Positions 438-6,752 of a stretch of DNA of 7,088 nucleotides are shown here, one piece after another. The stretch spans positions 1-7,088 of the forward strand of contig JAUXAJ010000268.1 in NCBI GenBank assembly GCA_030620005.1, read 5' to 3'. The position numbers were made by a program, and so were the translations under genes. The DNA comes from Promethearchaeota archaeon (GTDB lineage: Archaea > Asgardarchaeota > Lokiarchaeia > Sigynarchaeales > SOKP01). Under the pieces are notes generated by a model, which saw nothing but the letters and a program-made list of their open reading frames with translations, did no database searches and was not told the origin of the DNA. The first letter of the stretch is position 1; every line of letters begins with the position of its first letter.

Positions 438-611
438 TCAATCAGGAGTAAGACTATCAAGATCAGATAAATCTAAACCGCTATCGAGCGTTTCGGGTAC
501 ATCTGATAAAAATTCGTCTAAAATCTCCTTCAACTCGTCGCCCGACCTCTTGAGAATGAGGCGTATCAGACCAATGTTTATGTCTGGGTCGGAAATCAGC
601 GTCAAGACCCC

Positions 612-648
612 TTATGATAGAAATGGAGGCTAACTCCTATCTCATATA
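612..648 (-). other. Insert 3 (37 bases) in the Roadblock gene
   Basis: It lies between codons for SSCG and GVLTL, which are adjacent in an ordinary Roadblock domain. Read through in frame it gives Y-M-R and then a TAG stop (639-637). It is strongly self-complementary: ATGAGATAGGAG on its left side pairs, with small bulges, with CTCCATTTCTATCAT on its right side. The exact edges could slide by a few bases because they are inferred from the protein. Confidence 0.6.
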
Positions 649-705
649 TCCGCAGCTTGACGCAAATATCTTTCCCCCGATAAATTCGCTCGTGACGATT
701 TCTAG

Positions 706-734
706 CATGAGGGAGCGCAGAGATCGCACATCCT
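706..734 (-). other. Insert 2 (29 bases) in the Roadblock gene
   Basis: It lies between the codons for ELGD and LEIVT. Unlike the surrounding AT-rich DNA it is GC-rich. It has ATG near its 5' side and CAT near its 3' side, with GCG and CGC between them able to pair, so a weak hairpin is possible. Read straight through, the frame reaches a TAG (704-702) just past the insert. Edges are inferred from the protein and could slide slightly. Confidence 0.55.
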
Positions 735-812
735 ATCTCCTAGTTCCAAGTTTTTGCCTTGCTCTTCCGAGGCGCAAAATACCGCACTTGCGATAGCTCC
801 TATTCCATCCAC

Positions 813-852
813 TTGCAGATATAAAGCGACACGCTTTTTATAAAAACATATT
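813..852 (-). other. Insert 1 (40 bases) in the Roadblock gene
   Basis: It lies between the codons for FPAD and VDGIG. Read in frame it gives N-M-F-L and then a TAA stop (840-838). It contains the perfect hairpin AAAGCG-TGT-CGCTTT, and ATA/TAT can extend the stem past a two-A bulge. Like the other two inserts it begins with three bases followed by ATG. Confidence 0.6.
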
Positions 853-987
853 GTCAGCTGGAAAATAGGAGAACTTGGAGACACTTGCGATGGTCAAACC
901 GGTTCGATCTACGAGGATAACTTTCTTGATACCACTTTCGGACTTAATGATTTTTGACAAGATGGTATCAAAACTTTTGGTATCCAA

Positions 988-1313
988 ACTAATCTTTACA
1001 CACCTTCTATTTTTAATTTTTAAGATTTTATTTCAGATTTTAATAAAAAAATTTGATATCTTTATTATTAATATTAATACAATCTAATCTTATAAATTTG
1101 ATCTTATCCATTTTTTCTAAAGTTGGTTCTATTTGGTTTGATTGAGCAAATTGTAAAGCAAACTGCGTTCCTTACGCGTATTCACGGGCAAGAATTAGGT
1201 CCAGAAAATAAAATCTCTTTATATATTATCTTGAATTAATTGATATATACGTGTTGAAGTCAATATTTTTTAATTGAATTATTTATTATTTCTTGAAAAA
1301 ATGTGCTAAAAGC
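988..1313. other. Divergent upstream region of the Roadblock and SDR genes
   Basis: The left part is AT-rich leader of the minus-strand Roadblock gene. Bases 1141-1203 are a more GC-rich island. In the plus strand a frame open from 1102 reads there as IEQIVKQTAFLTRIHGQELG and runs to a stop at about 1234; TTG codons at 1123 and 1138 are the only starts. It may be a gene remnant or a small protein of about 38 residues, but I do not recognise it. The right part holds the TATA candidates for the SDR gene. Confidence 0.3.
1218..1249 (+). promoter_or_regulatory. TATA-box candidates for the SDR gene
   Basis: TTTATATATT (1218-1227) is the best match to an archaeal TATA box and would place transcription start near 1248. 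GATATATAC (1242-1250) and the weaker ATTTATTATT (1281-1290) are alternatives. The last would give a nearly leaderless transcript for the ATG at 1314, which has no Shine-Dalgarno. Which one is used cannot be decided from the sequence. Confidence 0.4.
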
Positions 1314-5295: not shown

Positions 5296-5781
5296 TTGGC
5301 AAAAAGATTCCACATTGACGATAAAAACAAAACCAAACAGAGTAAAGAACTAGAAGCATTAAAAGAATTACTAGATCTAATTGAAAGGGGGACAACTGGA
5401 TTCGATTTAGCATATCATTTCGAAAAGAGCGACTCGCTTCCGCGTTTATATCATGACGGAATTTTTTTTAACATTACATTTAAAAAAGTAGGCAAGGAAC
5501 CATTTATAGACGCACCAGATAAAAAAAAAGTTGAATTTACCTCGTTCAGTACTGTTGAAGAATCAGAAAAAGCAAAATTCATGAAATGGATAAAAAAAGC
5601 TATTCAAGAAAGAGAACGTGTCGTAAACCCCCTTGATGATTACAGTAAATATAAAGAAGCAAGAGAAGTAGAGGTTCTACCATTGAAATCTGCTTATTGC
5701 GAATTTTGTGGCATAAAATTGAGAGATCCTAATCAAAACTTCTGTGAAAGTTGTGGAGCAGAAATTTCAAGAAAGGATTAA
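5296..5781 (+). CDS. Unknown-domain protein with C-terminal zinc ribbon (paralogue A)
   Basis: This is a 161-residue soluble protein of unrecognised family. Residues 18-110 form a domain shared with the protein at 6186-6752: LLDLIERGTTGFDLAYHFEK, RLYHDG, a central IDAPDKKKVEF and FSTVEESEKAKF, predicted mixed alpha/beta. A charged linker leads to a zinc ribbon, C135-x2-C138, x11, C150-x2-C153, with the shared motif DPNQNFC. By eye about half the domain residues are identical to the paralogue. The small soluble domain plus ribbon suggests an adaptor or regulator, but no function can be assigned. The TTG start is supported by GAGGTG 6 bases upstream. It has its own TATA box and a following T-run, so it is probably monocistronic. 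Confidence 0.85.
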   Translation: MAKRFHIDDKNKTKQSKELEALKELLDLIERGTTGFDLAYHFEKSDSLPRLYHDGIFFNITFKKVGKEPFIDAPDKKKVEFTSFSTVEESEKAKFMKWIKKAIQERERVVNPLDDYSKYKEAREVEVLPLKSAYCEFCGIKLRDPNQNFCESCGAEISRKD

Positions 5782-6083: not shown

Positions 6084-6185
6084 TTAAACTTAATTGTCAC
6101 TTGATTAATTTGATCTCCTTATAGAAAGAAGCACAACTTTTAGTTGTTTCTTAGAATTCAATTATATAAGAAAAGAAAAAAAACC

Positions 6186-6752
6186 ATGCCCATTGGAACC
6201 GAATTAAAAAAACTAAAAAAAAAACTCGAAAAACAAGGAAAAAACGAACCTGAACATATCCTTTTACCATCTGAAAAGCTAAAGATAAAAATTAACAGCG
6301 AAAAAGACCGCAAAAAAGCTAAAAGAAAGAAATTGGAGAGTGATTTAACACTTTTAAAAAAATTAGATATAATTATAAAAAAAGGAGCCACGGGCTTCGA
6401 ATTAGCTTACGAAATAGAAAAGAGTCAATCCATTAAAAGACTAATTCACGATGGCGTTTTATTTTATAACTCTTTTCTAGAAATTGGACTTGAGAGATTC
6501 CTCGATATTCCAGACGAAAAACGGGTTGATTTTAAAAATTTCTCTACAATAGAGAAAACAGAAAAGTATTTGTTCTTAATTTGGCTGAAAGAATCGATAA
6601 AAAACTTTGAAAAGAGGGTAGATTTAAGTAGAAAAAGGTTAAAACCTGTGGAAACACGAAAAATTCTAATAACACATTGTAAGAATTGTAAAGCCAAAAT
6701 AAAAGATCCGAATCAAAAATTTTGTGAGTTCTGTGGTATAAAGATTAATTAA
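6186..6752 (+). CDS. Unknown-domain protein with C-terminal zinc ribbon (paralogue B)
   Basis: This is a 188-residue paralogue of the protein at 5296-5781. It differs by a Lys-rich N-terminal extension of about 50 residues (ELKKLKKKLEK, DRKKAKRKK), which is strongly basic and could bind nucleic acid or acidic membrane. The shared domain occupies 53-145 (IIIKKGATGFELAYEIEKS, RLIHDG, DIPDEKRVDF, FSTIEKTEKY). The ribbon is C165-x2-C168, x11, C180-x2-C183, with DPNQKFCEFCG. ATG at 6186 is chosen over an in-frame TTG at 6144 because the latter would read through a TATA-like leader. No Shine-Dalgarno is present, unlike paralogue A. Family and function are unrecognised; the two copies most likely arose by tandem duplication. 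Confidence 0.85.
   Translation: MPIGTELKKLKKKLEKQGKNEPEHILLPSEKLKIKINSEKDRKKAKRKKLESDLTLLKKLDIIIKKGATGFELAYEIEKSQSIKRLIHDGVLFYNSFLEIGLERFLDIPDEKRVDFKNFSTIEKTEKYLFLIWLKESIKNFEKRVDLSRKRLKPVETRKILITHCKNCKAKIKDPNQKFCEFCGIKIN

Follow-up and report, generated by a model that had tools for sequence, protein, structure and literature searches.

The whole 7,088-nt stretch of DNA analysed here, hereafter the window, carries on its minus strand an interrupted gene for a Roadblock/LC7 (MglB-like) protein (Table 1). The preliminary description had proposed that the gene lies there in four blocks, and that cutting out three stretches leaves a single open frame of 147 codons; both points were confirmed. The joined 147-residue product matches the Pfam family Robl_LC7 with an E-value of 1.1e-7, no Pfam match was obtained for any of the three unjoined ORFs of the gene, and all four blocks are conserved relative to intact Lokiarchaeal genes. 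The boundaries proposed for the first two inserts (852-813, 40 nt; 734-706, 29 nt) were retained. The third had been given as 648-612 (37 nt), and homologues had been expected to lack residues at all insert sites. At the third junction the intact homologues carry two more residues and read SSCGPKGVLTL, where the window product reads SSCGYKGVLTL, so that the insert was six bases overlong and is really 31 nt (644-614). The start codon is probably ATT, lying two codons ahead of the TTG at 987, in agreement with the alignment of relatives: in the DNA alignment their starts are TTG, ATG, ATT or ATA in roughly this position, and the starts are preceded by a GGTG that is common to most aligned relatives. 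Elsewhere in the window, the neighbouring ORFs at 5296-5781 and 6144-6752 look like diverged duplicates (TTGFDLAYHFEKS / ATGFELAYEIEKS), and their C-termini are zinc-ribbon-like.

Table 1. Features of the interrupted Roadblock/LC7 gene in the window.
Feature	Position	Strand	Details	Basis
Roadblock/LC7 (MglB-like) gene, interrupted	438..993	minus	151 residues once joined; start probably ATT (993-991); stop codon ending at 438	
exon 1	853..993	minus	MSLDTKSF...FSYFPAD	homologue alignment
intron 1 (predicted), 40 nt	813..852	minus		BHB score 23, p 0.0004, rank 1 of 121
exon 2	735..812	minus	VDGIGAIASAVFCASEEQGKNLELGD	homologue alignment
intron 2 (predicted), 29 nt	706..734	minus		BHB score 18, p 0.0026, rank 1 of 121
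exon 3	645..705	minus	LEIVTSEFIGGKIFASSCGY + first base of following codon	homologue alignment, BHB
intron 3 (predicted), 31 nt	614..644	minus		BHB score 17, p 0.0045, rank 1 of 121
exon 4	438..613	minus	KGVLTLISDPDINIGLIRL...LTPD, stop	homologue alignment

A protein database search found 452 relatives of the Roadblock protein, the best of the 120 listed being 94% identical across the full query. A contig scan yielded 51 Roadblock loci, all except two titled Lokiarchaeota or Lokiarchaeia, and 15 of them were aligned as DNA: ten intact full-length homologues, loci L049 and L050 from two other assemblies, and three partial or divergent loci. Protein identity between the joined product and the ten intact Lokiarchaeal homologues is 94-96%, and DNA identity 72-76%. 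Past the first frame break, exon 2 agrees with these ten at 25 or 26 of its 26 residues, and in six of the loci (L001-L006) all 26 residues are identical despite 13-22 base differences. The NG86 silent distance was returned as -1 for all ten intact homologues, which we read as saturation. An ortholog-level Roadblock match (at least 65% identity) occurs in about 62 of 83 same-class genomes by row count, and among these the gene is split in L049 and L050 only, where inserts of 31 and 32 nt with different sequences occupy the third site. Introns 1 and 2 were found in the window only, across the 83 genomes and the aligned loci.

These comparisons bear on two rival explanations. A pseudogene recently disabled by three insertions would account for the broken reading frame in the DNA, but the protein has been kept in four blocks at 72-76% DNA identity, even past the breaks, the third site is common to two other assemblies, and the mevalonate kinase (MVK) introns described below are maintained in 21 genomes. 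The disparity between protein and DNA identity argues that the gene is no decaying pseudogene, and the protein shows no relaxed constraint; ordinary decay, which had been argued against at the outset, is rejected here on these figures, and we regard recent disablement as very unlikely. An assembly or sequencing artefact is less probable still, to the point of being negligible, given that the L049 and L050 assemblies hold inserts of different sequence at one site and that 20 of 21 MVK copies share a length of 31 nt. Two further Roadblock copies were noted in passing. L051, a diverged second copy in genome G042, has a stop near its end without an insert, and L061 (G002:C53:50933-51037), a second copy in genome G002, matches residues 1-35 alone before continuing in other sequence and is probably a truncated duplicate.

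Archaeal tRNA and rRNA introns of the bulge-helix-bulge (BHB) type have in common a helix of 4 bp with a 3-nt bulge on either side, as described in PMC6379350, and tRNA BHB introns are reported to be abundant in some Asgard archaea (PMC11291895). We scored the insert sites for two 3-nt bulges flanking a 4-bp helix, with the cuts following the second bulge base, over all frame-keeping cut-site pairs within 9 bases (121 pairs per site). The score was devised after the first examples had been seen, and its p values give the equal-length random placements that reach the same score. The junctions at sites 1 and 2 were fixed by the protein, and the BHB helped to choose the junction at site 3. At all three window sites, L049 and L050, the top-scoring of the 121 pairs is a protein-allowed junction (p 0.0094 for L049 and 0.0062 for L050). 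Intron 1 combines the central helix GCTG//CTGC (3/4 pairs), bulges AC^A and AA^G and an inner helix with an outer exon helix formed by TCCA//TGGA and CTCCTATT//AATAGGAG. Intron 2, the weakest BHB of the three, has the central helix GGAG//CTCA (3/4 pairs), bulges AT^A and TG^C and the outer pairing CTA//TAG. Intron 3, at the site shared with the introns of L049 and L050, has the fully paired central helix GATA//TATC (4/4), bulges TA^T and AT^A, an inner helix and the exon helix GCGTCAAG//CTTGACGC.

The pairing between exons was also tested against synonymous recoding, in which synonymous codons were shuffled. The exon helix exceeds the recoded sequences at site 1 (p 0.02), site 3 (p 0.0005), L049 (p 0.0005) and L050 (p 0.0015). 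At site 2 it is no better than the shuffles (p 0.62), and it is the geometry of the junction that suggests an intron there. When the sequences are folded freely, the exon helix and the intron hairpin appear but the central BHB helix does not; at site 3 the minimum-energy fold takes a different register that lacks it. No Rfam match was found in the window at the gathering threshold. Spliceosomal introns have GT-AG ends, and group I and II introns contain a catalytic RNA of hundreds of bases; the window introns start with AA, AG and TG, measure 29-40 nt and show the hallmarks of neither class.

Inserts that are short, hairpin-bearing and frame-breaking recall the short non-coding inserts with hairpins of T4 gene 60 and the mitochondrial byps of yeast, where the ribosome hops over each insert by programmed bypassing. 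The Lokiarchaeal inserts differ in lacking matched take-off and landing codons: the triplets match at none of the seven Roadblock and Ras sites tested and at none of the 21 MVK sites. At the third window site, a 31-nt hop between codon boundaries would resume on TAA, and bypassing would leave unexplained both the BHB geometry at the junctions and the exon-exon helices kept in the codons. We therefore consider bypassing highly improbable.

A comparison of ORFs over stretches of several Loki genomes brought a second host gene to light: in G001, the same genome that carries L049, the MVK gene contains a 31-nt insert. In a class-wide MVK search, 24 genomes had a best match starting at residue 10, 15 or 16, and an exact DNA pattern read the intron in 21 of 227 Asgard genomes, all of them among those 24. 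The reversed control pattern gave no matches; the pattern was tuned to Loki sequences, so its silence in other genomes means little. All 21 introns lie between GAA and CAT of FGE|HFVVYG, and they are 31 nt long in 20 cases and 28 nt in one. The BHB at the junction ranks first in 16 and second or third in four; the intron of G001 scores poorly (rank 12 of 121, p 0.099). Across the 20 introns of equal length, five hairpin pairs have changed on both sides, and the covariation score reaches 0.161, compared with 0.106 +/- 0.009 for shuffles, none of 500 being as high. The score is lower in each of six slid structures, and 15 sequences give 0.156. The central and exon helices are nearly invariant, so that the covariation speaks for the intron hairpin only. 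The Roadblock introns are too few for the detection of compensatory change.

The outermost central-helix pair is non-standard in 14 of the 20 MVK introns, and for the exon helix AAGACCAT//ATGGTCTT 98% of cells show pairing. An RNAalifold consensus of 15 introns found the exon helix and the hairpin and paired the central bases with exon 2 instead, which counts against the exact BHB. Against synonymous recoding, the exon helix reaches p<=0.05 in 19 of 21 intron-bearing copies (0.06 and 0.07 in the other two) and in none of 16 intronless copies (lowest 0.07), counts in which related copies are not independent; in an earlier run, 15 intron-bearing copies gave values of at most 0.026 and 12 intronless copies values of at least 0.057.

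When mapped on a 31-row MVK tree, the intron requires eight changes, four of them forced by starred branches, while shuffled labels need 10.7 on average, with 32 of 500 as low as eight. At least eight changes on this tree imply that the intron has been gained, lost or passed on repeatedly. Such patchy presence, together with the observation of introns 1 and 2 in the window alone, would also suit inserts that are traces of mobile hairpins, resembling introns while being neither spliced nor bypassed. The inserts of different sites show no obvious sequence kinship by eye, and structure and protein are maintained, which makes this explanation a very slim one.

Intron-bearing MVK genes appear unspliced in existing gene calls. 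Among the 120 proteins listed of 4373 in the database, this holds for all seven that are >93% identical to an intron-bearing genome, one of which carries the name Galactokinase; no spliced MVK product was found among the same 120, where the search motif failed on 14. Several intron-bearing MVKs (P0121, P0162 and others) were entered with false N-termini such as MERPFFLAKF.... The start codon of several intron-bearing MVKs is apparently ACG.

A third host gene encodes a Ras-type GTPase. Ras matches number 75 in G001 and 65 in G002, and a single gene, in G002, is split. Its 31-nt intron (GGCGTAG^31 nt^ACTTTCATG) has the central helix GCGT//GCGC with 4/4 pairs, and the joined product reads TIGVDFHVKT, as does the intact G001 ortholog. 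A class-wide search added two genomes at the same site: G036, with a 31-nt intron and 4/4 pairs, and G075, with a 30-nt insert of different sequence that contains an in-frame stop and forms 3/4 pairs. The position corresponds to what we take, by Ras numbering, to be the switch I stretch. With a 30-base flank the exon helix gave p values of 0.47, 0.08 and 0.005, and with a 45-base flank, chosen after the helix had been seen, 0.005, 0.002 and 0.004; the pairing beats recoding in G075 with both flanks, and in G002 and G036 with 45 bases only. One of 20 intronless Ras copies fell below p 0.05 with either flank.

The search of G001 and G002 also returned two weak Ras matches that contain a stop. 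A Ras-like gene considered as an intron case (L294, G001:C72:14200-14800) was discarded, as it has a run of ten A and a frameshift instead, a site of error or slippage. The Ras profile is permuted in two open frames of 227 and 280 residues, with 41-157 before 1-55 at G001:C58:14510-15097 and 43-157 before 1-54 at G002:C63:14693-15271, each possibly a circularly permuted small GTPase.

A homology-free scan of 1.2 Mb for BHB motifs and open frames was set aside, since its 10,581 candidates were mostly due to chance, judging from the top 60. Two homology surveys, which detect only genes with a relative among the compared stretches, returned chiefly the genes already described. The first, with exons of 20 residues, recovered Roadblock and MVK in the G001 and G002 stretches, and in the remaining stretches 12 weak clusters (one in G044 and 11 in 'other') with one or two queries each. 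The second yielded 59 places on both strands, nearly all of them Roadblock or MVK, and a few weak ones with a single query. Downstream of MVK in G034, a gene at L218:3292 has a 49-nt frame-breaking insert compared with its L217 relative, with a weak BHB score. For cbf5, the TruB_N domain was matched in 80 of 83 Loki genomes, and no stop was found within it in any of these.

We put the probability at about 0.9 that the three window inserts are archaeal BHB (tRNA-type) pre-mRNA introns, cut by EndA and joined by RtcB. This reading draws on the sequence, the junction geometry and the conserved protein that removal of the inserts restores, and, in relatives, on helix covariation, codon constraint and the enzyme genes. 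In the Roadblock transcript the exon ends would pair together, and the last bases of the upstream exon would pair with the 3' end of the intron, forming a helix of 4 bp flanked by two 3-nt bulges. EndA, the tRNA-splicing endonuclease, would then cleave each bulge past its second base, after which RtcB, an RNA ligase, would join the exons and restore the Roadblock frame; transcription and translation of the gene are likewise presumed. Genes for EndA (PF01974, two in each genome) and for RtcB (PF01139) were found in six of six Loki relatives tested. The presence of two EndA genes would be consistent with an enzyme of the heteromeric type, which PMC2738675 links to the splicing of cbf5. Among the candidate explanations of the preliminary description, the removal of short RNA segments is well supported, in the specific form of BHB introns, bypassing is disfavoured by the absence of matched triplets, and mobile hairpins may have been the origin of the introns.

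The closest known system is the crenarchaeal cbf5 pre-mRNA, which has a short intron in its coding sequence and whose BHB-like structure is cleaved by EndA between bulge bases 2 and 3; as described there, presence and loss of this intron are lineage-specific (PMC2738675). The Lokiarchaeal introns resemble it as short BHB introns within coding sequence, with splicing here predicted. They differ in number and host, since cbf5 provides one intron in one gene of Thermoproteota, whereas three introns occur here in a single gene, and three host genes in Lokiarchaeia. In Haloferax volcanii, the HVO_1309 mRNA is processed by EndA at a BHB intron in its 5' UTR (PMC7714728), outside the coding sequence, unlike the Lokiarchaeal introns; the same 2020 article names one reported BHB intron in archaeal mRNA, that of cbf5, in addition to the Haloferax one. 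PMC2738675 also mentions putative introns in further protein genes of archaea, along with 12-bp ones in an archaeal virus, and calls them unconfirmed; like the present cases they are short predicted introns in protein genes. The tRNA and rRNA introns share the motif, but the Lokiarchaeal introns sit in mRNAs, where codons make up the flanking helix. Our searches of open-access journal literature turned up no description of such introns in protein genes of Asgard archaea. In the sources considered, the BHB mRNA intron is thus already known (cbf5 and one 5' UTR), and the Asgard protein-gene hosts appear new.

More such introns may be hidden, as gene callers assign false starts to intron-bearing MVKs. 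More tentatively, and with rather less than even confidence, we suggest that Lokiarchaeia harbour dispersed, still moving BHB introns of ~31 nt in mRNAs, including those of a small GTPase and a Roadblock-type GTPase regulator, that these are gained repeatedly at preferred sites, and that their splicing may time protein production. In the nearest relatives that eukaryotes are known to have, tRNA-type introns in protein genes would not have been expected. Should this reading be confirmed, archaea of the phylum closest to eukaryotes use the tRNA machinery to splice several ordinary mRNAs, in one case at three places.
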